From positions 1-36,879 of the forward strand of contig NZ_CAJCHS010000017.1 of assembly GCF_903970205.1 (NCBI RefSeq): a stretch of 36,879 nucleotides of DNA, in the 5' to 3' direction. A program made the position numbers and the translations under genes. This stretch comes from Nevskia soli (GTDB lineage Bacteria; Acidobacteriota; Terriglobia; Bryobacterales; Bryobacteraceae). Shown here piece after piece: positions 4,799 to 22,318 of this stretch. How positions within the stretch are numbered: the stretch's first letter is position 1; the number at the start of each line of letters is the position of its first letter. The notes beneath the pieces are model-generated. The model ran no database searches. It was not told where the DNA came from and saw nothing but the letters and a program-made list of their open reading frames with translations.

Positions 4799-6004
4799 TC
4801 ACCCGGACTTTTTCCAGCTTACATCCGCCCGCAAGTCCACGATCCCCGCTGTCTGCCGGCTCCCTACAACATCGAACACGATCGCGTCATCCAACCAATC
4901 GTTACTGCTACCATCCTCGTTTTGGGTGGCTACGGTAATCGCGTACTGTTGCGGTGTAAGCCAACACTCAAATCGGAATTTGACGTCCAATAAATCCCCT
5001 TGCGCGAACATACCAAGGTCTACTTCCTCGATTCGAGTATTGGTGCCGTATATATCGATTCCAATGCGATTGCGCACGAGAATGCCTACTGTCGGCGAAG
5101 ACTGCGCCCGATGAAACCGGCACGTGATTTGTATCTGGAGGCAGTCGCCGGTTGATATCGTGTTTATTGGGACACCCGCCGAGTTGATCAGCTTCGCTTC
5201 TATAATCTCGCTGGAGAGATCGCCGTGCCGATGGGTCGCTTGTAAGTTGCCTGATCGGTCGACCCTCTGATGTCCAGCCGACGATTCCAATACGCTAGCG
5301 ATGTATCGGTCAATCACTGTCTTAGGCTCGCCCTGCGCTTGCAACTCTCCATGCAGAAGGAATAGAGCGCGATCCGCAAGCTGCTTTACAAGCCCCATGT
5401 CATGGGAAACGAATAGCACGCTGACGCGCTGGTCGCGTAATTCACGGAACTTATGAATGCAGCGGTTGGCAAACGCGGCGTCTCCGACGGCCAAAGCTTC
5501 ATCGACGATGAGTAGTTCCGGCTCAACGTGAATCGCTGTAGAAAAAGCGAGCCGGACATACATGCCGCTCGAGTACTCTTTGACGGGGCGGTCGATAAAC
5601 TCGCCAATTCCGGCAAACTCTTCGATTTTCGGCAATGCGCGCTGCATCGCCAGCCGGGATAAGCCCAAAAGTTCGCCGTTAATCAGCACATTTTCGCGAC
5701 CGGTGAAATCGGGGTTAAATCCCGCGCCTAGTTCCAGAAGAGCCGCGACGCGCCCTCGCACAAGGACAGACCCGCCGGTCGGTCGTAAGATGCCGCTGAC
5801 TACCTGGAGCAGCGTACTCTTCCCGCATCCATTCGGTCCGACCAGCGCAACGAACTCTCCCCGTTCTTGCGAGAAAGAGACGTTCTTCAGCGCCCAAAAA
5901 TCAGTGTGAAGCTTGGCGCGCCCGAAGCGCAGCATCTCCACGATTCGGTCCGACGGCCTTCGATATAGGCGATAGACTCTTGAGACATTCTGAACGAGCA
6001 ACAC
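4799..6004 (-). CDS. Polysaccharide ABC transporter ATP-binding protein with C-terminal Wzt-like domain
   Basis: This 401-residue protein has an ABC ATPase of the polysaccharide-export (Wzt/TagH) type at about 1-235. Walker A is at 56-64 (GPNGCGKST), the signature YSSGM at 144-148, Walker B LLIVDE at 164-169, and the switch histidine follows in FVSHD. Residues 255-395 resemble the Wzt carbohydrate-binding domain that recognises the end-capped O-antigen chain. The partner permease Wzm, normally the adjacent upstream gene, is not in this window. The upstream neighbour is the last phage-tail gene, ending 37 bases before this GTG start. It could have been separated from its permease by the phage block, or it may be an orphan or a glycan-binding adaptor. 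Confidence 0.88.
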   Translation of the reverse strand: MLLVQNVSRVYRLYRRPSDRIVEMLRFGRAKLHTDFWALKNVSFSQERGEFVALVGPNGCGKSTLLQVVSGILRPTGGSVLVRGRVAALLELGAGFNPDFTGRENVLINGELLGLSRLAMQRALPKIEEFAGIGEFIDRPVKEYSSGMYVRLAFSTAIHVEPELLIVDEALAVGDAAFANRCIHKFRELRDQRVSVLFVSHDMGLVKQLADRALFLLHGELQAQGEPKTVIDRYIASVLESSAGHQRVDRSGNLQATHRHGDLSSEIIEAKLINSAGVPINTISTGDCLQIQITCRFHRAQSSPTVGILVRNRIGIDIYGTNTRIEEVDLGMFAQGDLLDVKFRFECWLTPQQYAITVATQNEDGSSNDWLDDAIVFDVVGSRQTAGIVDLRADVSWKKSG

Positions 6005-6041: not shown

Positions 6042-8828
6042 TCAGGCCATCGAAGAACCACTCTGGATGTTCGGATAGAAGTCCGTCGGGTAACCGATAA
6101 GACAAAACTGGTCAAGCGCAAACAGCACAACGCTCTCAACGCCCGCGCCCACCGCCAGACCCGCCTCTTTCTCCCACGGAGTCGTATAATCGCCGATCCC
6201 CACCAAGTGAGCAGTCTGATCCGCCGGAAATGAGAGCGCGAGCGGAACTCCGATTGAATTCAGCGCCTGATCCAAATTCCGGTTTCCAGTAAAAGTGAAA
6301 TTCTCCGTCTTGAAGCAATTGAGTGTTTGAGCCGTCCACGCGAAGACGGGCAGATTTATAACTTGCGTGAGTGCATAATCATTAACATCCGGCGGATAGA
6401 GTACTTCAAACTGTGCGTTTCCGACGCTTTGGCGCACATACGCCATGATGGACGAAGTAAACTGCCCAATCAGGCTGGGGAGTAGCACGGCCGCTTGCGG
6501 CACAGTTGTCGGATCGACTGTATTCGTGGCGATGAGCGGTAACGCGGTTCCGTATGCAGATTGATACTGTTGTTGAGTGTAAGCGTCGTAAAACGGCATG
6601 CTTGGCTCAGACGGCGGAGATGTTAGTTCCTCCCCGGGGAAGTACCACCATTGCACCTCGCCAAATTGAAGGTACGGAGTTTGTCCTCCGGCCGCCATGG
6701 TCTGCGCCATACAAAGGTGGACGCTTTGCCAAAAGCTGAGACTAGCTGTCGAGAAGTTCGTTTGAATAGCCGGCGTATTTACGACACAAGGTCGGCCGTT
6801 GGAATACCGCTGGGCCACGCCGACTTGAGTTGAAGGATCAGCGAACTGAAGTTCCGTACTGAAAGCGGTCGTTGCCTGAATCCCATAGCCTGTAAGCGCT
6901 TCGAAGAATGCCTGCGACCAATCGCGCGCCGCCCGGTTCAAAGGGGGACTTGCGGACAGGTCGGTTCGCCACCCCACATTCGCAGCAACATCCTGAAAGG
7001 CAACGCCGCCGGGCGTTCCATCAACACCGCCCGCCAAGCTAGGGCCGCTTGCGGTCGCAGTAAAGGTGCTCAGATCGTTCGGGTCCTCGAGCACCTTTAC
7101 CGCTAGAGTGGTCGCATTGCCGGCGGTTCCCATCAGACGCGAGGTAATCGTCAGCACATTCTCGCCAGCCCCCGCCCACACCCCCGTTGAGCCATTATTG
7201 ATTTGAAGCGCTAGGGCGATTGGCACGGTTACGGTGTCATCCCCCTGAAGGTGCAAGTGCGTAAAGTCCGTGTCGTCGATGTTTACGATCGTCTGGGCGC
7301 TTAGCGCTGAGATTCCACCGAACGTGATCGTTGCGGTTGCATAAACCTGGCCCAGGCGCGTTAGTTCAAAGAACCAAAGCGCGCCTTGATAATGATTGGC
7401 ACGACCTTGAAAACCCAACTTAGAAATCAACCAGGCGGTACGTTCGGGCGCCAGCGCCAGCGAGTGTTCCGTATCCCAATCAGTTGCCAATGTGACATTC
7501 GCAATTGCAGGCTGATCGGGCAGGTCGTTTGTTGGGTAAGCGATCTCGAGAAAATCGAAATAAAAGTAGTAGCCATTAGCCCCGGTGTACAAAACGTCGA
7601 TGGTGTGGTTTCCGGCGGCCAGGTTTCCCAGACTTACTCGAACGAGCTCATCATCCGAGAGGTAACAGTTGAAGCTCGACGGCGCTCCCCCGTCAATCGT
7701 AATCTGAACAGTACCGCATCCGGGGGCTTGTCGTGTACCAAGATATAGAGAGTGCGCAGCCGGCTCGGTATACATGCAGGAAAGCGAAGAACCCGTCGCA
7801 GTCGTGTACGCGATTGAGCCGCCGGAGAAGTTCCCTTTGTTGGCCGAGGATGGCGACCACGTGCCCGCGTAGGCCACAGTTGTAGAATCGTCTTCGATCC
7901 GCCTAGATCCCGGCCCGGCGACACTATAAGCCCGATTATTGCCCGCGACGGACCAGTTTGTCACTGAGACTTCGAATTCACTTCGCTGATAGGACGCCGT
8001 TTGGATTGCAGCGGAATAAGTCCAGCGCATTTTGCGAACGTTAGTCGCGCTAAATGTCTCGTTGGTCAGGATATCAGTCAGCGACGCGAACGGAATCGTT
8101 ACTTGCCACGTTGCGGGTGATGTGCCGCCGCTGAACGTCTGTGAAACGGGCTGCCATACCTCCGTCTGGCTGCCAGATACCGTTCCATAAACCCCAATCG
8201 CGTTCGCGTTGATCCCCTCGGTCGCGTCGAGGCGCGTCAAAAGGATCGTGCTGCCTGTCGCGCTCGCACTGACAGTTGTGGAAATCGAGTTTATAATTGA
8301 AGCCAGCTGGATTATGGCTGAGCCATTCGTGTCACCATCCGCGATTGTGTAGTTATAGTGTTCCGACGCATCCCATTCAAGCTCTATAAGATCTCCCGCG
8401 GTAGCGGCGCCCGTTAGTGAGAAAAGCGCTGAGGCGGCCCCATATTGCCCGGCAGCCGGACTGGCGTAGTCGGCCAGGCGGACCTCTCGAAAAACGTCGC
8501 CGTCCGGTCCGTCGAGCCAGAACCTAAGATACGGCCACGCGACCGTGGGGTACAAATTGGAGTCAAGCGAAATACAATTCGAGCGGCTTTCCTGATAAGT
8601 AAGCGTGAGTTCGCTCAGGTCACCGTCCGGAAGGTTTCGAAACAGCGGATGTTCAAACGTATTATCTCGATTCCATTCGATTACGGCCCAATCAAATTGC
8701 TGCCGCCAGGTGCCTGACACGGTAAACCCGGTTTCGCTCGTGCTGCTGAGCGCGGCGATCGCCGACGGCATGAAGAAATAACATTGTAAGTCGCGGTTTG
8801 GTTGAAGCTTCTGAATCGTTTCCGCCAT
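6042..8828 (-). CDS. Large phage tail protein with TIM-barrel and galactose-binding-like domains
   Basis: This 928-residue protein is the last gene of the phage block. The domains are read by eye. Residues 1-125 are beta-rich. Residues 130-237 form an Ig/tail-repeat-like unit ending in FSGG. Residues 300-430 resemble a galactose-binding jelly roll (YAGTWSPSS, then a VQITIDGG strand). Residues 450-928 look like a TIM barrel with a glycosidase-like strand ending in LQFGEVQWWYF near 720-730. A second copy of the 130-237 pattern is inserted at about 500-605. The layout recalls tail proteins with TIM barrels such as those of GTA-like elements and non-contractile tail sheaths. Enzymatic activity is unproven. 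It starts at ATG three bases after the stop of the hub gene. Confidence 0.65.
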   Translation of the reverse strand: MAETIQKLQPNRDLQCYFFMPSAIAALSSTSETGFTVSGTWRQQFDWAVIEWNRDNTFEHPLFRNLPDGDLSELTLTYQESRSNCISLDSNLYPTVAWPYLRFWLDGPDGDVFREVRLADYASPAAGQYGAASALFSLTGAATAGDLIELEWDASEHYNYTIADGDTNGSAIIQLASIINSISTTVSASATGSTILLTRLDATEGINANAIGVYGTVSGSQTEVWQPVSQTFSGGTSPATWQVTIPFASLTDILTNETFSATNVRKMRWTYSAAIQTASYQRSEFEVSVTNWSVAGNNRAYSVAGPGSRRIEDDSTTVAYAGTWSPSSANKGNFSGGSIAYTTATGSSLSCMYTEPAAHSLYLGTRQAPGCGTVQITIDGGAPSSFNCYLSDDELVRVSLGNLAAGNHTIDVLYTGANGYYFYFDFLEIAYPTNDLPDQPAIANVTLATDWDTEHSLALAPERTAWLISKLGFQGRANHYQGALWFFELTRLGQVYATATITFGGISALSAQTIVNIDDTDFTHLHLQGDDTVTVPIALALQINNGSTGVWAGAGENVLTITSRLMGTAGNATTLAVKVLEDPNDLSTFTATASGPSLAGGVDGTPGGVAFQDVAANVGWRTDLSASPPLNRAARDWSQAFFEALTGYGIQATTAFSTELQFADPSTQVGVAQRYSNGRPCVVNTPAIQTNFSTASLSFWQSVHLCMAQTMAAGGQTPYLQFGEVQWWYFPGEELTSPPSEPSMPFYDAYTQQQYQSAYGTALPLIATNTVDPTTVPQAAVLLPSLIGQFTSSIMAYVRQSVGNAQFEVLYPPDVNDYALTQVINLPVFAWTAQTLNCFKTENFTFTGNRNLDQALNSIGVPLALSFPADQTAHLVGIGDYTTPWEKEAGLAVGAGVESVVLFALDQFCLIGYPTDFYPNIQSGSSMA

Positions 8829-8831
8829 AAC

Positions 8832-11800
8832 TCATACGATGAGGGTAACTGTAAGATCGCTACCCGGAACAGATAGACCAACGCTCGCGATATCGATACT
8901 CAACTGCTGTTGAGGAAGCATCGCGGAAAGGTTGGCGCCGCTCATCGGTGCGCCCGAATTCATGGCTCCGTCCGCGATCGTGAGGCTGCAGAAAGGGCTA
9001 CCGTTGAGATTTAAGTTAATTATTATCGACGCGCCGACCGCGGCCTGCTTTACGACAGCATACAGACTTCCCACAACCTTTGGTGCGTCGATGATAATGT
9101 CGGGAGCGGCTCCGGTCTGAACAGATAAAAAACCGCCGATCTGGAATGATAGCTGGCCACCCGAAAGTGTGCGGTAACCGCCGAAATTCACGAAATTGAG
9201 GCTGTTCGTCGGGCTATTACCTTGTGAGTTTCTAATCGTACACTCCGTACTCATAATCCGTACGTTCGGCATGCTATACGGGTAACCCCAGTCACCGCTG
9301 GCAGCTGTTCCGAAGAAGTCTTTCACAAAAGGCACGACACAGACCTGTTGAAGTAACGCGAACACATCCGCGCCTGATAGATGAGCGGCGGGTATTGTGC
9401 CGTGGGCGCCCCGAGTCACCGTGAGAGAAATCCCTGTTGCGTCCAGCGCGGAGACGGCGAGGATCTCTAGATCGATAAGAATGTAGAATACCGGGGTCTC
9501 CGTGAGCGCCGTCGAAACAGTCAGTGTTGTATCTGACGGTCCGATACCGGCGGTCAAGGTTCCCGCTGGTTGTAGGTTTAACTCATCCAGATAATGAATC
9601 GCGTACGTGCCGGCGGTTGCCGTTGACGTGTTCGTCAAATCCAGAAACGACACTGGGCCGAACAGGATAGTGCCGCCTACGTTGTTCGGGATTGTCACAC
9701 CGAATGTGGGAATTGCCGGAGGAGCCGAGTCCACGGCATCGATGGGAGCCCCGCCGATCCGATATCGCGTCAGAGGGGAAATCCCATAGGGCGCCTCAAA
9801 GCCATTACTATTCGCGGCGCGACCGGAGATTTCGATTATGTTCAAGGCCTGGTTAGGAATCGTAAACTGGGCCGGACTCGTCTGCGTGGTCGCTCCAAAC
9901 TGATAAGTGCCTTGCGCGATTACAAACAGACTCGTCGAGTCGGGTTGGATGACCCACGGGCTTGCGAGGGTAAGCGTATTCGTGGTGTTTGTCGAAATTT
10001 CCAATTCCTGTGCAATGCCGGCCCCCCCCGTGATTCGGACCACCATCCCGTCGTAGGTGCCAGGTATTAGTTCGAGGTCGCTTGAGCCGATCGTATTCGA
10101 GCCGAAGATCGTAACTGGTGTCTCCGGCTGCAGTTCCATGCGCCAGTAAAAGTCCGCGTGGTCGTAGTTAGGATCGGGCGGTAGAACCGGCGTCACGGGC
10201 AGACCTAGATCCACGAACACCTGTGTCAACGGCTGATGTGATGCGATCTGAAACAGGTTGCTTGGATTCGGTCCGCGGTACACGTTAAACGTCAATGCAT
10301 TCGAAGGAAAGCTGAGGCCGGTCAGACTAATCGTGTTCGTGCTTGAACCCGTATTTACCGCGGCCTGTACCGTGAAAGAAAGCGGACTCTCGGCGCCGCT
10401 CGCGCCCACGCTTGTGACCGCATAGTACAAGGTTTGGCCGCTGGTGATCGATCCACCTGAGCTTTGGATGCCTGCTACCAAAGATAATAAGGGGATGTCT
10501 GGAGCTCCCTGCGTGCTTGCGCCCGGAGCCGCGAAAGCGATGCTAGCCGTTACCGTCGCGGTGCCGTCGGGCGCCTGGCTCCATGATTCAGATACTCCGA
10601 ACTGCAAGGTTCCGCTGCTGTCCAAGACGACCCCGGCGAGCGGTCGCGGTAAGTTGACTCCCGTGTTGCCTTGACGTCGGCTAGCGTCCGCGGGTGTTTG
10701 ACCGTTCGTATCGTCGTACCACGCGTCCATATGAAGCTGGGCCGTGACGACCGCCGTCCGGTAATTAGGCCCGGGTTGGATCCCGGTTACCCTAAAAGTT
10801 GTGCGCGAGAAGCCTTCTTTGTTATACGTGAATGTGATAATGTCGCCGGGAGTCAGGCCAAGAGCCTTGGCGCTCGTCGTGAACTCAATGATGCTATTGC
10901 CCTGCACGCTCTTCGATAAGAAGAAGGTCAGGATTCGCGCCGCTTGATCGTAGTGCGGAAGACCGAGTACCGGTGTCGTGCTTGTGATCTCCTGTCCCAT
11001 TGCTGCGACGTCGTCCACATCTACTACCGAAAGGCTGTCCTGCTGATAGTCGTTGAAGGCATCCTGAAACTCCGCGCTGAACCGGTTCGGAGTATCGGCT
11101 GAAGATCGGGCCTTCAGGCTCACGCTTGACGCGCCCTGGCTGGTCCGCGCAATTCCGGTAGTGCCATTGGTTCCGTCTCCGAACTCGTACGCGGCCCAAC
11201 CGCCATCAACAGTAGAGACGGCGTTGCTGTTTGCCGGAAGAGCTGGTTGCTGAAGCGCAACGGTGTTTTCAACGATCAGTTGGAGCAGACCGTTAGATCC
11301 GTAACGCAACAAAAGCCGCGAACCGTTGCGGATGCCTCGAATTACGTCGGAAGCGGCGCGCCGGCTCTTAATAACTAAGTTGCACTGAAACCGCGGCGTC
11401 ATCACCGGATTTCCAAAGAGGTCAGTCGTCTGGATCTGCTCAGCGCAGTAGCTAGCCGTGGCGGCGAACGTGCTCATATCGAGCTCCGCAAAAGCCCAAC
11501 CAATGCGCTGTAACACGTCGAGGATGACCCACGCGGGGTTATTGGAGAACGTCTGACCTAGGCTATTGGAATTGGCGTCATACTGTTGAGTCAACAATCC
11601 ATCTATGAGCACCGCGATTGAGGGCAGATCCGAACCGTCGTTGATGCTGTTCGGGACAACAACGGCGAGATAAGCCATGCTGCCGTAAGGGTCGCCCAAC
11701 GGATTTCCCTGCGCGTCAGTAAAGTCAAGGTTAAATGCGCCGGACCGAGTTCCGCTGCTGACGAGCGTATACCATCCTGTCCCTGTCATATTCTGGCCGG

Positions 11801-12782
11801 AAACAGCTGCTGGTATCTCAATGCTATTAACGAGGACCATCTGAATATCCTCGATAGGTCCCATTCCAAGCAGAAGTTCGAAGTGAGTTAGATTTCCGTC
11901 GTTTCTAGAGAAGACGATACTCGGGTGAAACCAAGCAGTCCCATAAACTAGAGGGACGAAATCGTTGTAGCGCGCCTCGTTGTCGTCGACCGGCGAGAGG
12001 TGGGACCCCTTTTCTCCCGCGCTGCGTACGACGATCGTCGGGGGTACAAATTCGATGCCTCCGAACCGCGCTGTCGTGCGATTGGAAGTATCGATATTGA
12101 ACATCCCTCTTAGGGTACAGTCGCTACGGGTATAGGCACAAGCTGTGTAGGGCTGCTGCGACGCCCCCGCGACTTCGAAATTGCCGCATCCGCCGTCGAC
12201 ATCGGGAGAGTAGCCACACCGGTAATAGCGTGAGTACTGTCCGGCTGTTCCGCCCGAGGCAGCCTGCTGGCGCGAGGGTAGATCAGCCGGGAACGTCCAG
12301 GGACAACGTTTCTGGATTCTTGTGTCCGGCAGCACGACGCGCTGCAGAGACAACCGATTACTCGCGCTCACCCGGAACGTCTGCTCGGTGATAAGGTCCG
12401 GCGAATCGAGAATTCCTTTGAACAGTACTTGCACGTTGCTTGAAGGTGCACTATTCGCGAAGCTGTAGAACACGATCGAAACCGTGACTTGGCCGCCTTT
12501 CACCCCAATATTCTGATTGATTTCCGATATATAGGAATCGGCATTGGCTAGCTCAATCGTAATCTTAGGAAGCGTATCGATGCCCAGGTCGGAGCCGATC
12601 TGCATCTGAAACACATTCTGTTTCAAAACTCTGGGTTGATAGAGCGTGCCATTGATCAGAACGGCGTGAGTGCTCCAACTCTCGGTCAAAACGTCCGTGC
12701 CGTCGGAGAACGTGCAGTCGAATAACAAGAGGGGAGTATCCGCAATGAGCTGTTCTTTGGCTGTGTATAGGGTCGGGGTCAC
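8832..12782 (-). CDS. Giant phage tail hub/tip protein, gpL-like and gpJ-like domains fused
   Basis: The GTG at 12782, one base after the stop of the previous gene, gives 1316 residues. A start at 12848 would overlap that gene by 65 bases and is less likely. Residues 1-230 resemble the lambda gpL/GTA hub domain, with cysteines C160, C189, C199, C215 and C222; the RCGY and ACAYTRSDC contexts recall the gpL iron-sulfur site. Residues 270-700 resemble gpJ-type hub proteins (FVPLVYGTAWF; NPAWVILDVLQRIGWAF; SYCAEQI). The remainder is a series of beta-sandwich, Ig/FN3-like segments, including one with YYAVTSVGASGAESPLS. The role would be to close the tail tube, contact the cell surface and anchor the outer tail protein. 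Confidence 0.7.
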   Translation of the reverse strand: MTPTLYTAKEQLIADTPLLLFDCTFSDGTDVLTESWSTHAVLINGTLYQPRVLKQNVFQMQIGSDLGIDTLPKITIELANADSYISEINQNIGVKGGQVTVSIVFYSFANSAPSSNVQVLFKGILDSPDLITEQTFRVSASNRLSLQRVVLPDTRIQKRCPWTFPADLPSRQQAASGGTAGQYSRYYRCGYSPDVDGGCGNFEVAGASQQPYTACAYTRSDCTLRGMFNIDTSNRTTARFGGIEFVPPTIVVRSAGEKGSHLSPVDDNEARYNDFVPLVYGTAWFHPSIVFSRNDGNLTHFELLLGMGPIEDIQMVLVNSIEIPAAVSGQNMTGTGWYTLVSSGTRSGAFNLDFTDAQGNPLGDPYGSMAYLAVVVPNSINDGSDLPSIAVLIDGLLTQQYDANSNSLGQTFSNNPAWVILDVLQRIGWAFAELDMSTFAATASYCAEQIQTTDLFGNPVMTPRFQCNLVIKSRRAASDVIRGIRNGSRLLLRYGSNGLLQLIVENTVALQQPALPANSNAVSTVDGGWAAYEFGDGTNGTTGIARTSQGASSVSLKARSSADTPNRFSAEFQDAFNDYQQDSLSVVDVDDVAAMGQEITSTTPVLGLPHYDQAARILTFFLSKSVQGNSIIEFTTSAKALGLTPGDIITFTYNKEGFSRTTFRVTGIQPGPNYRTAVVTAQLHMDAWYDDTNGQTPADASRRQGNTGVNLPRPLAGVVLDSSGTLQFGVSESWSQAPDGTATVTASIAFAAPGASTQGAPDIPLLSLVAGIQSSGGSITSGQTLYYAVTSVGASGAESPLSFTVQAAVNTGSSTNTISLTGLSFPSNALTFNVYRGPNPSNLFQIASHQPLTQVFVDLGLPVTPVLPPDPNYDHADFYWRMELQPETPVTIFGSNTIGSSDLELIPGTYDGMVVRITGGAGIAQELEISTNTTNTLTLASPWVIQPDSTSLFVIAQGTYQFGATTQTSPAQFTIPNQALNIIEISGRAANSNGFEAPYGISPLTRYRIGGAPIDAVDSAPPAIPTFGVTIPNNVGGTILFGPVSFLDLTNTSTATAGTYAIHYLDELNLQPAGTLTAGIGPSDTTLTVSTALTETPVFYILIDLEILAVSALDATGISLTVTRGAHGTIPAAHLSGADVFALLQQVCVVPFVKDFFGTAASGDWGYPYSMPNVRIMSTECTIRNSQGNSPTNSLNFVNFGGYRTLSGGQLSFQIGGFLSVQTGAAPDIIIDAPKVVGSLYAVVKQAAVGASIIINLNLNGSPFCSLTIADGAMNSGAPMSGANLSAMLPQQQLSIDIASVGLSVPGSDLTVTLIV

Positions 12783-12783
12783 G

Positions 12784-13587
12784 TCACGAGCTCGCTGGGG
12801 AAAGGATGTTAACGCGCAGGTTGTTCTGTGACGGGCCGGTCGACACAACGGTAACCTGATTCATATCGAAGCGCGCAGACGGATACGTCGCGTTTGCCGA
12901 CGTCGTTGGGAGATATGTTCCGGGATGAGGTTGGGCATCCACCTGTAACCCAAAAACGTCTACGGTGGATTCTGCTGGAACCTCCAGAGAAAACTCACCC
13001 AACGTGCTTTGGCTGCTTGCAAACGTGCTACTTATGTAGAATCGAGTCCACGCTAAGGAGGGGGAAACCGATTGCGACGCCGTGTTGTTACCGTCGCTGC
13101 GGGAAAGCATGACTGTGCAAGGACCGCTGCTAGACCGTAGATACACGCTAAAGGCGCAAGTGTATTGACCGGGTATTGAAACCGACTGGGTCACCGGCAA
13201 GGAGGTCTGGGACGAATTAACCACCTGAATGGCAGCTGCGCCTCCCATGGGGTCCGCGATCCCTGCCGTTATCTGGAGTAGGCTACTGAATACCCAGCAA
13301 GATTGAGTCAGGTCTCCGTTGAAGAGGAGCAAGTTCGCGCTCGGGTCTACAAACAGGAACGGTTGAAGCGAGCCCTCGCACGACTCGAAAAACGAAGTGA
13401 TCGTGTCGGCCTCCGCATCGGTGATGCTTTCGTAATCCAATATCCATCGAACCTGCGGAGCGTAGATGTCGTATAAAGATATGACGGAACCGTCTTGGGC
13501 GATATTCTGGATGGTCCGCTCCAACCGTTCCTTGATTAGTGGATACTGGGCCAGCGTTCCCGTTGCGAGCTGTGGGTAAAAGAGCAT
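12784..13587 (-). CDS. Distal tail protein paralogue with appended jelly-roll domain
   Basis: This protein has 267 residues. The first 90 align by eye with the next gene to the right: both open with a LATG-x2-AQYP motif, then a conserved W, an E-x3-I-x2-FF motif and F-x-F-x-DP. This resembles the DUF2460-like/distal tail families of siphophages. Residues 93-235 form a jelly-roll like those of carbohydrate-binding modules, ending in the common QPHPGTYLPTT strand. A short tail follows. A Shine-Dalgarno AGGA lies before the ATG, overlapping the upstream stop region. It is likely a ring protein between tail tube and hub that also displays a glycan-binding domain; the glycan role is inference. Confidence 0.65.
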   Translation of the reverse strand: MLFYPQLATGTLAQYPLIKERLERTIQNIAQDGSVISLYDIYAPQVRWILDYESITDAEADTITSFFESCEGSLQPFLFVDPSANLLLFNGDLTQSCWVFSSLLQITAGIADPMGGAAAIQVVNSSQTSLPVTQSVSIPGQYTCAFSVYLRSSSGPCTVMLSRSDGNNTASQSVSPSLAWTRFYISSTFASSQSTLGEFSLEVPAESTVDVFGLQVDAQPHPGTYLPTTSANATYPSARFDMNQVTVVSTGPSQNNLRVNILSPASS

Positions 13588-13588
13588 A

Positions 13589-13948
13589 CTAGGTCCTGTT
13601 CTCCCGAATTGTCACGGTTGTCTTGCCGGAGAGAACCCCGACGGAAGTCTCATCCAGTTCATCGCTCACGATGGAACAATTTGGATAGACTTGTGCGCTC
13701 CAGGGATCGGTAAACGCGAACGTGCCTGCCGCTCCTTGATTTTTCAGAAAGAACTCCTCTATGGTGTTCATTTCCTGCTCACTTAATTGGCTCAGTGCGA
13801 TTATCCATTGGTGTAGAACTCCTGGGGAGTTCCTGAAACGCTGTTCCGACCCGTCAAAAAAGCGAACGACATCCGCCCGAAAGGAAACAATGTACCGAGC
13901 GGGGTATTGAGCTACCGCTCCAGTGGCGAGAATGGGGAATTGTGCCAT
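13589..13948 (-). CDS. Small distal tail protein
   Basis: This 119-residue protein has the features of the short distal or minor tail proteins found in siphophages and GTA clusters. It has a beta-strand N-terminus with RFFDGSEQRFRN, a helix with an E-x3-I-x2-FF motif near residues 78-88, and AFTDPWSAQVYPNC. It is a clear paralogue of the N-terminal domain of the following gene. It sits directly after the chaperone pair, where a long tape-measure gene would normally intervene. The start is ATG without a strong Shine-Dalgarno. The exact family is uncertain. Confidence 0.65.
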   Translation of the reverse strand: MAQFPILATGAVAQYPARYIVSFRADVVRFFDGSEQRFRNSPGVLHQWIIALSQLSEQEMNTIEEFFLKNQGAAGTFAFTDPWSAQVYPNCSIVSDELDETSVGVLSGKTTVTIRENRT

Positions 13949-13975: not shown

Positions 13976-14377
13976 TCACCGGACAATCCGGCGTTGCTCG
14001 TTAGTTCGCTGAATCTCGGATGCATCCCGCCGTTCCTCCTCTTCCAGTTCTTTTGCCAATACAACGAATGCATCTGTTTCGCGACCATCCCGTTCACCAG
14101 CGTAACTTCCACCATGCCGCTTCCAGACCGCATAGCTCTCCAAATATCCCAGGCTGCTCGCGCTCACATATGACTTAGGACACTCAAACAGCACCAGGTC
14201 CTTGCGGACCCAAACCGGTGTCCTTGCATCGGGATCCAGGGGAATCAGGAAACCGCATCGCCGGGCGCGCTCCATGTGCTTAGCACGACACTCGTCGCAA
14301 TTCCACGCGGCTCGGCCCCTGCGGTAGAAATGGAATGCGACCCTTAGTTTTTTATTTCTGCTTCCGAAAGCCGGCAC
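13976..14377 (-). CDS. T-like frame of a frameshifted tail-assembly chaperone, with cysteine-rich motif
   Basis: This open frame of 133 codons (possible GTG at 14377) lies in the -1 frame relative to the G-like gene and overlaps it by 34 bases. It is most likely reached by ribosomal frameshifting at 14347-14353, which would add about 123 residues (from LRVAF onward) to the G-like protein and give a GT-like product of about 244 residues. The segment contains CDEC-x10-C plus a later cysteine in FECPKSY (C27, C30, C41, C66), which could bind zinc. The C-terminus is acidic then basic and probably helical. The independent GTG start has only a weak Shine-Dalgarno, so separate translation is possible but not favoured. 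Confidence 0.75.
   Translation of the reverse strand: MPAFGSRNKKLRVAFHFYRRGRAAWNCDECRAKHMERARRCGFLIPLDPDARTPVWVRKDLVLFECPKSYVSASSLGYLESYAVWKRHGGSYAGERDGRETDAFVVLAKELEEEERRDASEIQRTNEQRRIVR
14294..14353 (-). promoter_or_regulatory. Programmed -1 frameshift site: slippery heptamer plus stem-loop
   Basis: Reading the minus strand, A AAA AAC at 14353-14347 is in the canonical X XXY YYZ phase of the G-like frame and is followed at once by TAA. A five-base spacer (TAAGG) leads into the stem GTCGCATTCCA at 14341-14331, which pairs with TGGAATTGCGAC at 14305-14294: eleven base pairs with one bulged T. The 25-base loop contains a GC-rich inner CGC...GCG / GGC...GCC stem that could extend it. The -1 frame after the slip is open for 123 codons. 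Confidence 0.85.
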
Positions 14378-14709
14378 ACGGCTTTCACCAGAAGCAGCGC
14401 TTCGCGAAAGAGTTCTTCCGGACCCCTTTCGGCTAGCGTCCTGGAGGTCGCGGCGACACCGTCGATCTCTAGACCTTCAATCCCCTGCAGACCCCACTCG
14501 AGATATAAGTCGTCGATTTCGGCCGAAAGAACCCCTGCGTCAATCTTGTCCTGTTCGGACGTTCCAGCCTGGAAAAACTCGAGTTTAGGCGCGATCGCAC
14601 GCACTCGCCGCATTAAATCCAGCCGCCTCGCAAACGACATTCGCCGCACTAAGTAGAAGACGTCCGGCTGGATTGACGACCGTATTCTTTCATCGCTCTC
14701 GTAAGTCAT
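14344..14709 (-). CDS. G-like tail-assembly chaperone
   Basis: This 121-residue, mostly helical protein lies immediately after the tail-tube gene, the standard position of the tail-assembly chaperone (lambda gpG type). Its last sense codons (ATA AAA AAC, then TAA) form a slippery heptamer leading into the overlapping T-like frame. The sequence alone does not identify a family; the assignment rests on position, size and the frameshift cassette. In lambda-type tails, G and GT coat the tape-measure protein during assembly, but no tape-measure gene follows here. The ATG start lies 4 bases after the tube gene's coding end, with only a weak GGAT upstream. Confidence 0.72.
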   Translation of the reverse strand: MTYESDERIRSSIQPDVFYLVRRMSFARRLDLMRRVRAIAPKLEFFQAGTSEQDKIDAGVLSAEIDDLYLEWGLQGIEGLEIDGVAATSRTLAERGPEELFREALLLVKAVCRLSEAEIKN

Positions 14710-14712
14710 GCT

Positions 14713-15879
14713 TTATCCAAATGCAATGGCGATTTCGTCGTCGCCAAGCCCTTGCGCCTGTGAACCTTCGAACTGCCAAAGCAGGCGTGTATCCTTGTCA
14801 TTGAATTGAGGAACCTCCGGGACGACGCTGCCCATGAAGAAACCCAGTAGCTCACCGGATTGGCTACCTAATTGGAATCCGGCCGAAATCGGTAACCGCT
14901 GGCGCGCGGCCTGATAAAGCGCCGTTGTCGCGGTGTCATCCTGACCGTATAGACCCAAATTCATCAACACTTTCCGCAATCCCGGGTTAATCGCTTGCGG
15001 GAGCGTAAAGCCGAACTCCTGATTTCGCAAGTCTAACTGGTTGTTTAACATGACGTCTGCGCTCGTCAAAGTTAGAAACTGAGTCGCAACCGTCCCGAGC
15101 CAGGCTTGTCCTAGGTGGCCGGCGACGATCGTCGTAGGCGGAGTTCCCAGGGCGGGCTCAATTGGGAAAGCGGATAGTTGTCCCTCGCCCGCCGCGAAAG
15201 AACTGGAGTCAAGAACGTCTTGTGAGTAGCCCTTGAACTGAAACTGCTGATAATCCGCGTTGACGGAAAATGAAAGCTGATCAACGGCGCAACCACTCAA
15301 GAGTCGTTGCACGGCGGTGACGGGCGTCCAATAATCGAATAAGCTGTAACTGGGAAGCTCGGTCGCCGGCTGATACGTCACGGTTGGACCCACCGCGGCG
15401 CCGGTCACCGGGACATTCGTAAAGGGTGAGTTCAAGACTACCGATGTTGTGGTTGTCCCGGTAACGAACCGAATTTCGCCCATATACGTGATGGCCTGGC
15501 GCAGAGACAGCCCGTGCGGTGCTTCGAAAGTTATCACCGAAGTCGTCGAGTTCGGCGCGATGGAACCGCCATTGAAGAACATCGGGACGGATCCGAGCGC
15601 GCTTTCGAACATAGGACCATAGCCAGGGGAGATGCCGGGCGTAGTCCACGCAGTCATGTACGTAGTGACCTGGAAGTTCGTCTGTTTTCGCAAGTTGGCA
15701 GGCGCTCCCAGATAGGTTCGAGTACCCGTTTTGTCTTTACGGATCGACGTCGAAACCTTCTGCTGAACCGTCATCTCCAAAGCAGAGATTCGATTCTGGG
15801 CAGTAACAGTTCCCACCTGCCCGTAAGAAGGTTCCAACTGGCAATACCAGCGGTTGTTATTAGATGAAATATAAGCCAT
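14713..15879 (-). CDS. Phage major tail tube protein (putative)
   Basis: This 388-residue, beta-rich, soluble protein has low charge and many T, S, G and Q residues. It lies between a tail completion protein and the tail-assembly chaperone pair, the usual position of the major tail protein of siphophages. The N-terminus (MAYISSNNN..., then KVSTSIRKDKTGTRTYLG) and the repeated beta segments fit a tail-tube fold with an added domain. At 388 residues it is longer than many siphophage tube proteins, so an inserted domain at about 90-180 is likely. The ATG at 15879 has a moderate AGG upstream. The call rests on gene order and composition more than on a motif. Confidence 0.62.
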   Translation of the reverse strand: MAYISSNNNRWYCQLEPSYGQVGTVTAQNRISALEMTVQQKVSTSIRKDKTGTRTYLGAPANLRKQTNFQVTTYMTAWTTPGISPGYGPMFESALGSVPMFFNGGSIAPNSTTSVITFEAPHGLSLRQAITYMGEIRFVTGTTTTSVVLNSPFTNVPVTGAAVGPTVTYQPATELPSYSLFDYWTPVTAVQRLLSGCAVDQLSFSVNADYQQFQFKGYSQDVLDSSSFAAGEGQLSAFPIEPALGTPPTTIVAGHLGQAWLGTVATQFLTLTSADVMLNNQLDLRNQEFGFTLPQAINPGLRKVLMNLGLYGQDDTATTALYQAARQRLPISAGFQLGSQSGELLGFFMGSVVPEVPQFNDKDTRLLWQFEGSQAQGLGDDEIAIAFG

Positions 15880-17531: not shown

Positions 17532-18443
17532 CTAACTGTTCACCTGAACACCGAACTGATTGCGCAATACAGCACATCCATAGAGCACATCGACGGTGAA
17601 CTGTTGAGATAGCGTATTTGGCTGATAGCTCATGGTTACTCGCATGCCGAAATTGCCCAGTTCCGCGTACTCGGCGATAGCTCCGGTTCCCGGCAAGGGT
17701 TGCGGCAAACGCCGGATAACCAGACCGAGCGCGCTCCTGGTAAACGCCAGGTTATGAGTATTCAAAGGTGAACTCCCCGTCTTCTCGACATATTGTGAAC
17801 GGAAAACAAAGAAGTCTTTGATCTTCCCGAAGGTACCTTCGATGATGGCGCGGAGACCGGCCTCCCCAGCGGTCTGGAACTCACTGAAGCGCGAGATCTG
17901 ACGCATGGCCGAATACGTATTTGAATCGACCACCAGATACTTCGGCTCGCTCGGCGGCACCTTCGCCGAGAAGAGCGCGGTTTCCGCCGAATCGATTGTC
18001 GCTTCAGTAATCGCCGTACCTGCAACTCCCACCGGCGCATTAAAAGTAAACCCGGCGTAAGTGTTCAATAGGTCGGTTTCAATACGTTCCGCGATCGCGA
18101 TCACCGCGGGTTCCATGTAGACCTTTAGAAGGTCCGGCACGGCCAACACTCGAGTCACGTCGGGAATCTGAAACGTGGCTTCTACATGCGTGTTCAGTAT
18201 TACCTGGGCGTTTCCCAGATTTGGATTCTGCGGCTGTACGCTGCCACCTTCGGCGAGGTTATTCGCGACCAGCACCGGCGGGATCGGCACGTTCACCGTA
18301 TCGCCTGCATGAGCCAGTACCGGCTCATAATCCCGATTAACCAGGTTACCCATTACGAGGTTTCCGACCAGAGCGGGCAACGCATCGGCCGCCACAAGTT
18401 TTACGATCGCATTTGCTACGTTTGCTGAGGTAATTGCTCCCAT
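17532..18443 (-). CDS. Major capsid protein, P22 coat-like (HK97 fold)
   Basis: This 303-residue protein resembles P22-type coat proteins. It has an N-terminal helix and LVNRDYEPVLAHAGDTVNVPIPP, typical of the N-arm and early E-loop region, a central ATFQIPDVTRVLAVPDLLKVYMEP followed by the spine-helix-like IAIAERIETDLLNTYAG, and a later YLVVDSNTYSAMRQ and GTFGKIKDFFVFRSQYV segment. No prohead protease lies nearby, consistent with a P22-like head that does not need cleavage. A scaffold-like gene precedes it. It has a strong Shine-Dalgarno (AGGAGAG) and is flanked by a possible promoter upstream and a hairpin downstream. The family assignment is by eye. Confidence 0.8.
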   Translation of the reverse strand: MGAITSANVANAIVKLVAADALPALVGNLVMGNLVNRDYEPVLAHAGDTVNVPIPPVLVANNLAEGGSVQPQNPNLGNAQVILNTHVEATFQIPDVTRVLAVPDLLKVYMEPAVIAIAERIETDLLNTYAGFTFNAPVGVAGTAITEATIDSAETALFSAKVPPSEPKYLVVDSNTYSAMRQISRFSEFQTAGEAGLRAIIEGTFGKIKDFFVFRSQYVEKTGSSPLNTHNLAFTRSALGLVIRRLPQPLPGTGAIAEYAELGNFGMRVTMSYQPNTLSQQFTVDVLYGCAVLRNQFGVQVNS

Positions 18444-18548: not shown

Positions 18549-19109
18549 CTACTTATCCTGTGATGTGACCCGAAGGATCTCTTGCCGGACTCGCTCCCGG
18601 TCTTCCGGGCTCATCGTAGGCGAGATCATGTTCAACGTGATCGCGGCTTGCGGTTGCGACGTGCGGGAACCGCCCGACAACCCCGTGCCACCGGGGATTC
18701 TCGCGGGCAGGAATTCCGGATTGTCGTGAACAAAACCGGCCAGATACTCGCGCACACCAACCTCTCCGCTGTCCGTCTTGGCGACAAGCCGGCCGTCTTC
18801 CGTTCGAAAGATCTCGTCCTGGACAGCCTTGTAAGCGACATCGAGCTTCGTGACGCCCAACGCCTGTAGCTCATTCCTGATCTTTGAGCTTCGCTCTGCC
18901 TGGTCGGCCACCTCACGATTTTTCCGATTCTCTTCGGCCATTACATTGAGGCGCTTCTCCAAAGCTTCGCGGCGTCGGCGTTCCTCCACGAGTTCCGCCT
19001 TAAGTACCGGCTCTCGCTTGCTGGTATCCTGCCGCACATACTCAGCGATCGCCCGTTGTACTAACCCCTGGATGTCAAGATCTTTGTTCTGTTCTTTTGG
19101 CTCATCCAT
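18549..19109 (-). CDS. Capsid scaffolding-like protein
   Basis: This 186-residue, highly charged protein has a long predicted coiled coil at about residues 35-85 (VEERRRREALEKRLNVMAEE and following), a small central domain (LGVTKLDVAYKAVQDEIF) and a flexible proline/glycine-rich C-terminal part. This composition and the place between portal and major capsid are typical of phage scaffolding proteins, which direct capsid assembly and then leave the head. A strong Shine-Dalgarno AGGAGGG overlaps the end of the portal gene, which stops four bases before this ATG. Confidence 0.72.
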   Translation of the reverse strand: MDEPKEQNKDLDIQGLVQRAIAEYVRQDTSKREPVLKAELVEERRRREALEKRLNVMAEENRKNREVADQAERSSKIRNELQALGVTKLDVAYKAVQDEIFRTEDGRLVAKTDSGEVGVREYLAGFVHDNPEFLPARIPGGTGLSGGSRTSQPQAAITLNMISPTMSPEDRERVRQEILRVTSQDK

Positions 19110-19113
19110 TCTT

Positions 19114-20556
19114 TTAGCCCTCCTTGATTTCCGGTTTCTCCATCGTCAACGCCGCATCGATCTCGTCCGCAATCCTCGACTTGATCTCCTGCCTCGAATC
19201 GCTGAAGTACTTGAACGCGATTCTCTTGAACAACTGCTCCTTCAGCGTGGCTGAAGGAATCCCAAGCTTCAATAAGTTCTGTGCATCCTGGATTTCACTT
19301 GCAAAGTCCTGAATGTCGAATTCGTCCATCCCCGAAATACCCACGGTAAGACCGTCTTGCCGCACCTCTGAGATGGCCGTCAGTACCGCGGACATCGCTT
19401 CCTTAACCACGTCGCCATAGGCCCGCAGGATCTCCTCGGTTACCGTGAAGTCCCAAGCCTTACTCAGACCGCTCTGCTGCGTTCCTGATTTCTGACCGGT
19501 CATTTGGCTGTTCATGTAGCAGACACGATAAACTTCGTCCTGTAGCCGGACTAAATTGTCAGCCGCGATTTGAAAGACCTTACCCTCGGGTTCCGTCCAC
19601 CCAAACTTGTCTTGGGGTCCAAGCTGAATAAAGTAGGACTCGCCCGTGATCTGGGCGAATTCGCGATCTGAATATACGACCGGCGTGGCGAACAGTCCCA
19701 TTGTCAAAGCCCATGCCAGCGCGTTTGACTTATTGAAGTGTTCCAACTGGAGTAAGGAGGCTTTGTTCATTAGCCAGAGCCCCTCGCTTACTCGCATTTC
19801 GAACAAGGGTACTCTCTTCTGATCGGCTAGCGCATGTCGACCCGAGGCGGCCAGCAGTGGAGCACTTGGCCGGCCTTGCTCGTCCGCGCCGACATAAAGC
19901 TCGAAGTGTTCGCGGTCGTAATACAGCCATCTCGTTTGGCGGTTCCAGTTACCGTCGTGTATGCTAGTTTGGCGAAAGGCTGACGTCCGGAGTACAACCC
20001 AGTCAAAAACTCCGTTGTCGTCGTAAGACCAGTTAATGAGGTCCGCCGCGGAGTAGTCAACCAGATAGGCTCGCGACAAACCCTCCGCGTCTTCGTGCGC
20101 GCGGCTTACTGCGGGGCCAGAGGATTGGGGGAAGTCGATTGCCGTGTAGGCGCGCCCGAAGACCAGTGCCTCCGTGATCTGACGGCGAAAAAACGCGCTC
20201 AGGGTGGTTCGGCCCCGGTCGCAATCGTCAATAAAAACGGAAAAGAAATTCTTTCCGGCTGAATTGTCGCCTTGAAACTGGATAACCGGTTCGCGACGAA
20301 ATAGCGTTGCGGTATACCAGTCCACAATCGAACCAATATAGTTTTCATAGAATACCCGGCTTAGCCGTTCGAAGTAGATGTCGTTCGGCTCCTTGTGCCT
20401 GCGGATCAGATAGTTAGCGGCATTTACTTTGAATTGAGCGCCACCGGCGTAGAGGTCACGGTACATTGCGCGCGTTTGGCTCTGCACCCGGTACTCCGGG
20501 TGCTCGCGCGTAATGAAGTGATTTCCCGGATTGTCAGTCGCTATGATCCCGCTCAT
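19114..20556 (-). CDS. Phage portal protein (DUF4055-like)
   Basis: The ATG at 20556, with AGGGGACGG upstream, gives 480 residues; a start at 20640 would add 28 basic residues and has no ribosome site. The protein shows features of portal proteins: an N-terminal wing (YLIRRHKEPNDIYFERL; GSIVDWYTATLFRREP), a central crown/stem region with LEHFNKSNALAWALTMG, and a C-terminal stretch (QQSGLSKAWDFTVTEEILRAYG) characteristic of the DUF4055 portal-like family. The portal forms the dodecameric vertex for DNA entry and tail attachment. It is the first gene of the block; a terminase gene, normally just upstream, is absent. Confidence 0.8.
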   Translation of the reverse strand: MSGIIATDNPGNHFITREHPEYRVQSQTRAMYRDLYAGGAQFKVNAANYLIRRHKEPNDIYFERLSRVFYENYIGSIVDWYTATLFRREPVIQFQGDNSAGKNFFSVFIDDCDRGRTTLSAFFRRQITEALVFGRAYTAIDFPQSSGPAVSRAHEDAEGLSRAYLVDYSAADLINWSYDDNGVFDWVVLRTSAFRQTSIHDGNWNRQTRWLYYDREHFELYVGADEQGRPSAPLLAASGRHALADQKRVPLFEMRVSEGLWLMNKASLLQLEHFNKSNALAWALTMGLFATPVVYSDREFAQITGESYFIQLGPQDKFGWTEPEGKVFQIAADNLVRLQDEVYRVCYMNSQMTGQKSGTQQSGLSKAWDFTVTEEILRAYGDVVKEAMSAVLTAISEVRQDGLTVGISGMDEFDIQDFASEIQDAQNLLKLGIPSATLKEQLFKRIAFKYFSDSRQEIKSRIADEIDAALTMEKPEIKEG

Positions 20557-20833
20557 TCCGTCCCCTATTCCGGTCAACCTAAGACAGCGGATATACCTTT
20601 CGGCAAATCTGCCGGCCGCCCGCGCGGCTCTCTCAACCACGACTTTAGAGAACGGTATTCCGAAGTTATCCGAAATGCAGTGTTAAGTTACTAGAAACAA
20701 ACGCGATCGAGAACGAAACGATATGTCACCGCAAGCGGATGGAGTGCGCGAATGGCGGATTTCGGACCGAAAGCCGTTGAACGGGCGGTAATCGTCGATT
20801 CACTAAGTCTTAGAATAAGAGCGGACAGAGTCG
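20557..20833. promoter_or_regulatory. Divergent intergenic region between portal and histidine kinase
   Basis: This 277-base region separates the phage block from the divergent two-component genes. It holds a tandem 10-base direct repeat at 20655-20674 (GTATTCCGAA GTTATCCGAA, 8 of 10 identical), one helical turn apart, about 100 bases upstream of the portal start. A TAGAAT hexamer at 20811-20816 lies 17 bases before the kinase ATG and could be its -10 element. No convincing -35, terminase remnant, tRNA or attachment repeat was seen. Confidence 0.4.
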
Positions 20834-22318
20834 ATGATTTCGCCGCTTCTGAGAGGAACCCCCGGAGCAGTGCTGGTGCGGGCTGGCGCCATGATCGCGC
20901 TCATTGCGATAACGGATTGGCGGGTAGAGCGCGAAATCCCGCTCGGGTTTCTCTATCTGTTCCCCATGCTTCTAGTCGGCTCAACCCTGCCGCGCTGGGC
21001 GATCGCAATTGTGGCGATAATCTGCACGGCTTTGACGGAAGCTTTCGACTCATTCCCCTGGCAGCCCATTTCGGCGATTCCCAGGGATATCTTGTATTTC
21101 GCGGCGTTCTTCTGTATGGGTCTTTTTGTATTCGAAGTCGGCCGCAGCAGGCGGCTCGCTCAAGACCATCTGAATCGAATCGAAGTTGAAATTCAACGTC
21201 GGCGGGAAGCCGAAGAGCAGCTCAAGATCCTAGTCGATAGCAGCCCCGCTGCTATTTTCACTCTTGACCCCGGCGGCATCGTGCTACTGGCTAATGACGC
21301 GGCTCATCGTCTGTTCTTGCTCCCGCCCGGCTCTCTATCGGGCACTCCCATCGGACACCACCTACCTGCGCTCGCAACGGTTCCGGCTTGTAGTTCACAC
21401 GGGCAGGCCTTCCGAACGGTTATGCAGAGCCGCGGCCGCCGATCGGACGGCGACGTCTTTCTCGCCGACATCTGGTTCTCGACTTACTGGACCAGTGCGG
21501 GCCCGCGCTTGGCCGCGATGGTCATTGACACTTCAGAAGACTTGCGCTGCCGGGAAGAGTCGAGCCTGCACCAGTTGCTTGCCGGATCGCGCATTCTGGT
21601 GGGCGCTGTGTCGCATGAGATCAGGAATATCTGCGGCGCCATCGCGGTTGTGCATCAGAACCTCGCAAGGGATTCATCGATTGCGCAGAGTAAGGATTTC
21701 GAAGCTCTCGGAACTTTGATTGTCGCTTTGGAGAAGGTGTCGGCTATGGAACTTCGCCACACCGCCAATCAGGCTAGCGCCGTCGATCTTGAGTCTCTAC
21801 TGGAGGAACTCAACATTATTATTGAGCCCGATCTTCGGGACCGCATGGTCGAGGTTAGTTGGAATATCGCATCGGATCTGCCTCACGTGTGGGCCGACCG
21901 GCATAGTCTGATGCAAGTGTTTCTAAACCTCACCAAAAATAGTGTGCGCGCCATGTCCGGGCAGACACGGCGGTCACTTACGATCTCTGCGTATTCGGAG
22001 AAAGATCGGGTCCTGGTGGAAGTTCGCGACACCGGCGGCGGCGTCAACAATCCGGATAGCCTGTTCCGCCCCTTTCAGCCGGGCGCGCAAGCGACGGGCC
22101 TTGGTCTCTACCTTTCCCGCGCCTTCATGCGTTCATTCCGAGGTGATCTTCGTTACAAAGCGGTCTCGGGCGGTGCTGCCTTCCTCGTTGACCTTTCCCC
22201 GGCTTTTTCACTTACTGACAACTTGACTCAAGATGATGAACAATATTCGCCTCCTGCTGATCGACGACCACGGTCTCTTCCGCGAGAGTCTGAGCCGGCT
22301 CCTTCAAGCCGAACCTGA
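20834..22318 (+). CDS. Membrane-bound PAS histidine kinase
   Basis: This 494-residue sensor kinase has three to four hydrophobic segments at about residues 10-100, a coiled linker at 108-130, and a PAS domain at about 128-235. The HisKA-like dimerisation helix has the H-box SHEIRN with phospho-acceptor H261. The ATPase domain has an N-box (LNLTKNSVRAM, 364-374), G1 DTGGGV (399-404) and G2 ATGLGLYLS. The ligand sensed cannot be read. The last 28 codons overlap the response regulator start by 86 bases, so the two are translationally coupled. It is divergent from the phage portal and shares its upstream region. Confidence 0.92.
   Translation: MISPLLRGTPGAVLVRAGAMIALIAITDWRVEREIPLGFLYLFPMLLVGSTLPRWAIAIVAIICTALTEAFDSFPWQPISAIPRDILYFAAFFCMGLFVFEVGRSRRLAQDHLNRIEVEIQRRREAEEQLKILVDSSPAAIFTLDPGGIVLLANDAAHRLFLLPPGSLSGTPIGHHLPALATVPACSSHGQAFRTVMQSRGRRSDGDVFLADIWFSTYWTSAGPRLAAMVIDTSEDLRCREESSLHQLLAGSRILVGAVSHEIRNICGAIAVVHQNLARDSSIAQSKDFEALGTLIVALEKVSAMELRHTANQASAVDLESLLEELNIIIEPDLRDRMVEVSWNIASDLPHVWADRHSLMQVFLNLTKNSVRAMSGQTRRSLTISAYSEKDRVLVEVRDTGGGVNNPDSLFRPFQPGAQATGLGLYLSRAFMRSFRGDLRYKAVSGGAAFLVDLSPAFSLTDNLTQDDEQYSPPADRRPRSLPRESEPAPSSRT

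Follow-up and report, generated by a model that had tools for sequence, protein, structure and literature searches.

Genes and features at the locus

The window, by which we mean the whole stretch of 36,879 nucleotides from Nevskia soli that was analyzed, harbors a head-tail gene cluster of 14.6 kb that is located between host genes and has all of its genes on the minus strand (Table 1). The cluster starts with a portal gene, followed by a conserved 186-residue reading frame, a P22-type coat gene, three small head-tail genes, a tail tube gene, the G/GT genes, two DUF2460-like genes, a J-like hub gene and a tail-sheath-like gene. Judging by the organism names attached to homologous loci, the element belongs to the Bryobacteraceae (Bryobacterales, Acidobacteriota).

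On one side the cluster is flanked by genes for a Wzt-type ABC transporter, located within 40 bp, an M24 peptidase and phosphoglycerate kinase. On the other side, an interval of less than 200 bp (20640-20834) separates the portal gene from the start of a divergent histidine kinase gene. Due to the proximity of these host genes there is no room for integrase, replication or lysis genes. Matches to the Wzt-type ABC transporter (4799-6004) and the M24 peptidase (3605-4777) adjoin the element in 22 and 19 loci, respectively, mostly downstream, and this shared neighborhood suggests an ancestral location of the element. The downstream end is variable, since the tail-sheath-like gene was detected in 65 loci, some contigs being too short to reach it, and locus L183 has it in inverted orientation.

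Table 1. Features of the head-tail cluster and of the G/GT cassette in the window.
Feature	Position	Strand	Evidence
Portal protein gene, first of the cluster	19114..20640	minus	phrog_145 at 1.7e-45
Conserved 186-aa gene between portal and coat, probable scaffold by position	18549..19109	minus	synteny
P22-type major capsid protein gene	17532..18443	minus	PF11651 at 2.6e-15, phrog_283 at 4e-40
Conserved small gene, 137 aa	17164..17577	minus	synteny
Conserved head-tail gene, 255 aa	16384..17151	minus	synteny
Conserved head-tail gene, 163 aa	15891..16382	minus	synteny
Tail tube protein gene, directly upstream of G	14713..15879	minus	PF18906 at E 0.003; syntenic in 103 loci
G-like ORF, zero-frame product, 121 aa	14344..14709	minus	ORF call; relatives; AlphaFold2 model; fold matches
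Slippery heptamer A AAA AAC, in phase, abutting UAA	14347..14353	minus	sequence; kept in 102/106 places
Spacer UAAGG, 5 nt, starting with the zero-frame stop	14342..14346	minus	equal spacing in relatives
Stimulatory stem, 5′ arm	14331..14341	minus	folding; compensatory changes at the outermost pair and the Ala wobble position
Stimulatory stem, 3′ arm, one bulged base	14294..14305	minus	folding; comparison of relatives
T-like domain, −1 frame after the shift, 123 aa + stop, four invariant cysteines	13976..14347	minus	purifying selection
DUF2460 distal tail-like gene, directly after T	13589..13948	minus	PF09343 at 5.7e-8
Second DUF2460-like tail gene	12784..13587	minus	profile match
J-like tail hub or fibre protein gene	8832..12848	minus	phrog_31 at 1e-25, PF13550
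Non-contractile tail sheath TIM-barrel-like protein gene, last of the cluster	6042..8828	minus	PF23845 at 6e-15

The initial annotation described the G region as a −1 frameshift cassette for a G/GT tail chaperone, with the heptamer A AAA AAC in phase just before the UAA of a G-like gene, a 5-base spacer, an 11-bp stem with one bulge and an overlapping open frame in the −1 register. All of these parts were present at the minus-strand positions listed in Table 1. The 3′ end of the G reading frame is GAA ATA AAA AAC TAA, with the heptamer in the X XXY YYZ phase. The 11-bp stem, which has its single bulge on the 3′ arm, is part of the minimum free energy structure. The −1 frame is open from 14476 to a stop at 13976, and after a slip reading would resume with LRVAF. 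The predicted products are G, of 121 residues, and a GT fusion of about 244 residues. In single-sequence folding, the energy of the 91-nt segment was not above chance (z = −0.39) and the structure was therefore judged by comparison only.

Conservation of the heptamer

A total of 201 whole genomes was searched for homologues of G. Matches were found in 105 genomes, nearly all of them from one family, and 105 regions were compared. An in-phase AAAAAA[C/T] was detected by script in 100 of the 105 located G genes, the window included, 99 with AAC and one with AAT. Two loci that first appeared to be exceptions, L207 and L214, were rejected as such because both carry the heptamer on reading the sequence, which brings the total to 102 of 106 homologous places. 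Of the four places without it, L125 has a changed heptamer and L150 a deletion of T, L212 is a prophage in which the sequence is different, and L215 is a doubtful match. IMG/VR contigs gave a similar picture: of the 40 loci that could be evaluated, 39 have the heptamer, and a further five stop within G.

The background rate of in-phase AAAAAA[C/T] in long reading frames of these elements is about 4 per 100,000 codons, which excludes a chance origin of the cassette given its occurrence in 102 of 106 places. Codon use around the site is also strongly restricted. The arginine codon that precedes the heptamer is CGA or AGA in 92 of 92 cases (A-ending arginine codons make up 23% of the background), the lysine codon is AAA in 100 of 100 (background 29%) and the asparagine codon is AAC in 99 of 100 (background 67%). 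This codon use indicates that the constraint on the heptamer acts on the RNA, beyond the protein alone. The zero-frame stop need not abut the heptamer: it lies one codon later in 21 loci and much further in a few. The heptamer and the spacing between it and the hairpin are conserved, whereas adjacency of the stop is not.

Some cassettes are damaged. Besides L125 and L150, the heptamer is changed in L106, which is apparently the same metagenome contig as L125 and thus not independent, and in L194 the T frame is broken relative to that of its congener L193. The damage in L125/L106, L150 and L194 could be due to decay or to assembly errors.

In the 22 nt examined upstream of the heptamer, a Shine-Dalgarno-like GAGG, AGGA or GGAG was found in 48 of 100 elements, mostly at a distance of 10-12 nt; the window has no such motif in these 22 nt. 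By analogy with dnaX, the motif might stimulate the shift. The second codon of the heptamer is AAC, not AAG, almost everywhere in the relatives. In E. coli, A_AAA_AAG slips more readily than A_AAA_AAC (PMC5009743). The preference for AAC may reflect the set of lysine tRNAs of these bacteria.

The predicted stimulatory hairpin

Both the 5-nt spacer and the hairpin persist in the 96 elements that were examined, in which the ten core pairs of the stem are formed in 83-100% of cases. Further evidence came from the outermost pair, 12-59 (numbered from the start of the heptamer), which is G-C in 63 elements, C-G in 9, A-T in 4 and G-U in 4. When mapped on a tree built from five structural proteins, a minimum of 5 changes involves the C-G state and a minimum of 3 involves A-T. 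The encoded amino acids differ on both arms as a result, with Val replaced by Leu and Asp by Glu, which would be expected if base pairing were the driving force. Position 17, the wobble base of an alanine codon, is C only if position 53 is G (58 of 58; hypergeometric probability 2e-15 before correction for phylogeny). When position 17 is not C it is mostly A, which is able to pair with U54, and its state changes at least 28 times on the tree. Inserted codons in the loop leave the arms of the stem intact.

Both arms are coding, and part of their conservation could therefore come from constraint on the protein. The initial annotation had proposed aligning relatives for conservation of the heptamer and for compensatory changes in the stem. 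The alignments bore this out: the two frames stand in a −1 relation in the relatives, the heptamer is kept and compensatory changes occur repeatedly. As is characteristic of −1 frameshift signals, the heptamer is followed, after a short and constant spacer, by a structure in which compensatory changes have occurred.

The T domain and the G protein

Most pairs of congeners gave a dN/dS ratio of about 0.1-0.3 for T and similar values for G, with many synonymous distances near saturation, and these ratios indicate that the T domain is under purifying selection. The segment of the T frame that leads from the last stop codon to the heptamer contains no ATG, GTG or TTG in 40 of 100 elements, and an ATG upstream of the heptamer is absent in 88 of 100. 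Four cysteines of T are invariant (C17, C20, C31 and C56 in T numbering), which suggests a metal site.

Structure prediction with AlphaFold2 gave a pLDDT of 80 for T and 88 for G. Sequence and alignment searches assigned T to no Pfam family and no PHROG; G likewise had no Pfam match and the G of the window no PHROG, in agreement with the earlier remark that the proteins show no recognizable sequence resemblance to lambda G or T. Searches of PDB sequences, Pfam and PHROGs with the G and T alignments also gave nothing useful. Foldseek against the PDB returned no significant hit for T or for G (best E 3), and tblastn against phage genomes gave no match for G and a chance match only for T (E 0.8). 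A sequence match to a known chaperone family was thus not found, but it is a supporting criterion only, since these chaperones are very diverse.

The predicted G structure was also compared with viral models. The best match was an unnamed Caudovirales protein (E 9e-8), and several tail assembly or tape-measure chaperones in the BFVD collection matched with weaker E-values. The HK97 tail assembly chaperone (PDB 2OB9) could be aligned with the predicted fold over 88 residues of its 107-residue chain at Z 5.5, with 8% sequence identity, a Z value within the range of unrelated entries, and the alignment is suggestive only. In most relatives G lies between the tail tube and the tape-measure gene, with GT extending across the −1 shift; in the window no tape-measure gene is found at the place directly after T. 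Gene order, the −1 relation of the frames and the weak fold match to tail assembly chaperones together support the reading of G/GT as a tail assembly chaperone.

Terminase and tape-measure genes

A terminase large subunit gene lies directly upstream of the portal gene in about 80 relatives (among loci L111-L210). There is none beside the portal gene of the window, and none was found in the window genome, of which the assembly is 71% complete. Genome G030, which is 99% complete, also gave no terminase match and retains only a short remnant.

In 94 of 98 elements, additional sequence separates T from the first DUF2460 gene. In nearly all of these it holds a glycine- and serine-rich reading frame with a median length of 221 residues and a conserved C-terminal motif. 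In L113, the C-terminal part of the reading frame gave a match (E 0.001) to the C-terminal end of the tape-measure profile phrog_3779. In L213 and L212, which are related prophage copies, the reading frames at this place are long, with 1122 and 999 residues, respectively. Four elements have no tape-measure-like gene between T and DUF2460, those of the window, its congener G001, G030 and G040. A simple loss in the genus of the window was considered and rejected, because G001, G030 and G040 have an unlinked copy on another contig with unrelated neighbors (L304:8109-8786, L305:8230-8934 and L306:5252-6106, respectively). In G001 and G040 this unlinked gene is located near RND efflux-type genes.

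No tape-measure gene was found in the window genome at its 71% completeness. With this level of completeness and the unlinked copies in the other three genomes, loss of the gene cannot be claimed. The window copy, with neither terminase nor tape-measure gene adjacent, may be partly decayed, split or incomplete. The tape-measure gene product is the expected partner of GT, and relocation of the gene fits an element that is selected as part of the host.

Distribution and inheritance

The coat gene was detected in 104 of 120 sampled Bryobacteraceae genomes (about 87%), mostly as one copy, and in 5 of 80 genomes outside the family. The gene order of the cluster recurs in about 100 genomes. Nearest neighbors in sequence are congeners for 35 of 49 coat, 42 of 47 portal and 44 of 51 J proteins, where less than one is expected. 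These patterns indicate that the element is mostly vertically inherited, usually with one copy per genome. Two likely prophages, L213 in G099 and L212 in G041, carry genes related to the element; L212 has a run of G where the A heptamer would be.

A vertically inherited, phage-derived structural cluster with no integrase or replication genes resembles a gene transfer agent (GTA), and from its gene content and distribution the cluster is best read as a domesticated, GTA-like element. Literature searches on GTAs in Acidobacteria or Bryobacteraceae and on frameshifting in GTAs gave no description of this element; the searches covered open-licence papers and are weak evidence of novelty. The cassette described in the initial annotation was upheld, whereas that annotation missed its setting, a vertically inherited GTA-like element with no tape-measure gene at the window locus.

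Discussion

According to the mechanism that we propose, ribosomes translating the G-like gene would slip back by one base at A AAA AAC, and the hairpin beginning 5 nt further downstream would promote this slip. The majority would terminate at the adjacent stop codon and release the 121-residue G, while a minority would continue in the −1 frame to give a GT protein of about 244 residues that includes the four-cysteine T domain. As in lambda, G and GT would be expected to chaperone the tape-measure protein and to recruit tube subunits, acting during assembly of a non-contractile tail.

The similarity to lambda G/GT lies in the organization. Both systems have the gene behind that of the tail tube and, in most relatives studied here, before that of the tape measure; both have a −1 heptanucleotide slip site near the end of G, and both join a T domain to G, in the present element as a predicted fusion and probable minor product. 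The slippery site of lambda is G GGA AAG, compared to A AAA AAC in the Bryobacteraceae element. The present element also differs in having no sequence family match, in being chromosomal and vertically inherited, and in its downstream hairpin with covariation and four invariant T cysteines. Lambda produces about 30 copies of G for each GT, both proteins bind to the tape measure, and the tube protein is bound by T (PMC5009743); the programmed −1 frameshift of lambda G/GT was reported by Xu et al. 2004 and Levin et al. 1993, as cited in PMC5009743.

A second comparison is with the GTA of Rhodobacter (RcGTA), which is also a phage-derived head-tail cluster inherited with the host. RcGTA has a short tape-measure protein and a DUF2460-type distal tail gene, as does this element, and uses separate chaperone genes where a −1 frameshifted chaperone is predicted here. 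Further differences are the P22-type coat, the different phylum and the unlinked tape-measure gene in some genomes. The E. coli dnaX site shares with this cassette an A-rich slippery heptamer, a short spacer and a hairpin, as well as the upstream Shine-Dalgarno-like motif that roughly half of the elements studied here carry, in most cases at −12 to −10. It differs in the heptamer, which is A AAA AAG (PMC5009743), in the gene and the outcome, and in that the window has no such motif.

The conservation of heptamer and hairpin bears on how T is expressed. T could be a separate gene with its own start, the heptamer then being a coincidence of a conserved Arg-Lys-Asn end. The window does offer a GTG at 14377, ahead of the heptamer and in frame with T, and some candidate start is found upstream in 60 of 100 elements. 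We nevertheless consider separate initiation very improbable, since it accounts neither for the remaining elements, in which the T frame has no start codon, nor for the invariant synonymous positions of the heptamer and a stem that shows compensatory changes at a fixed spacing behind it. The run of six A residues would also allow slippage by RNA polymerase instead of the ribosome, a reading that we regard as extremely improbable; it does not explain the in-phase constraint, the placement of the stop or the conserved downstream hairpin, and transcriptional slippage generally requires longer runs.

An alternative of another kind is that the cluster is an ordinary or recently decayed prophage in which the cassette is a mere relic. 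The absence of terminase and of a linked tape-measure gene from the window copy, the lack of a terminase match and the short remnant in the nearly complete G030 genome and the related genes in the likely prophages of G099 and G041 can be explained in this way. Such an origin appears unlikely, since in about 100 genomes the element mostly diverges together with the host genus, usually occurs as one copy with conserved gene order and evolves under purifying selection, and the host genes that hem in the window cluster leave no space for the genes of a complete phage (integrase, replication, lysis). Furthermore, an unlinked tape-measure gene, as found in three genomes, would hardly be tolerable for a mobile phage.

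Programmed −1 frameshifting that yields G and GT is thus well supported by the conservation of heptamer and hairpin, the purifying selection on T, the missing T starts and the weak fold resemblance of G, and on this comparative evidence we are highly confident that the cassette is real and functional. It is a further instance of the kind of cassette first described in phage lambda. On a broader reading, which we consider about evenly balanced between right and wrong, the Bryobacteraceae would carry an undescribed, family-wide domesticated GTA that continues to require a −1 frameshift for its assembly. Its tape-measure gene would have shrunk to about 220 codons and, in some lineages, would be expressed in trans at an unlinked site.

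The main point of interest is that a −1 frameshift cassette has been retained throughout an entire bacterial family, within an element that is inherited with the host. Selection on the bacterium has apparently maintained the ratio of G to GT, which argues that Bryobacteraceae still build tailed particles. Should such particles transfer DNA, these common soil bacteria would possess a system of their own for gene transfer, with the cassette serving as a simple marker of intact copies.
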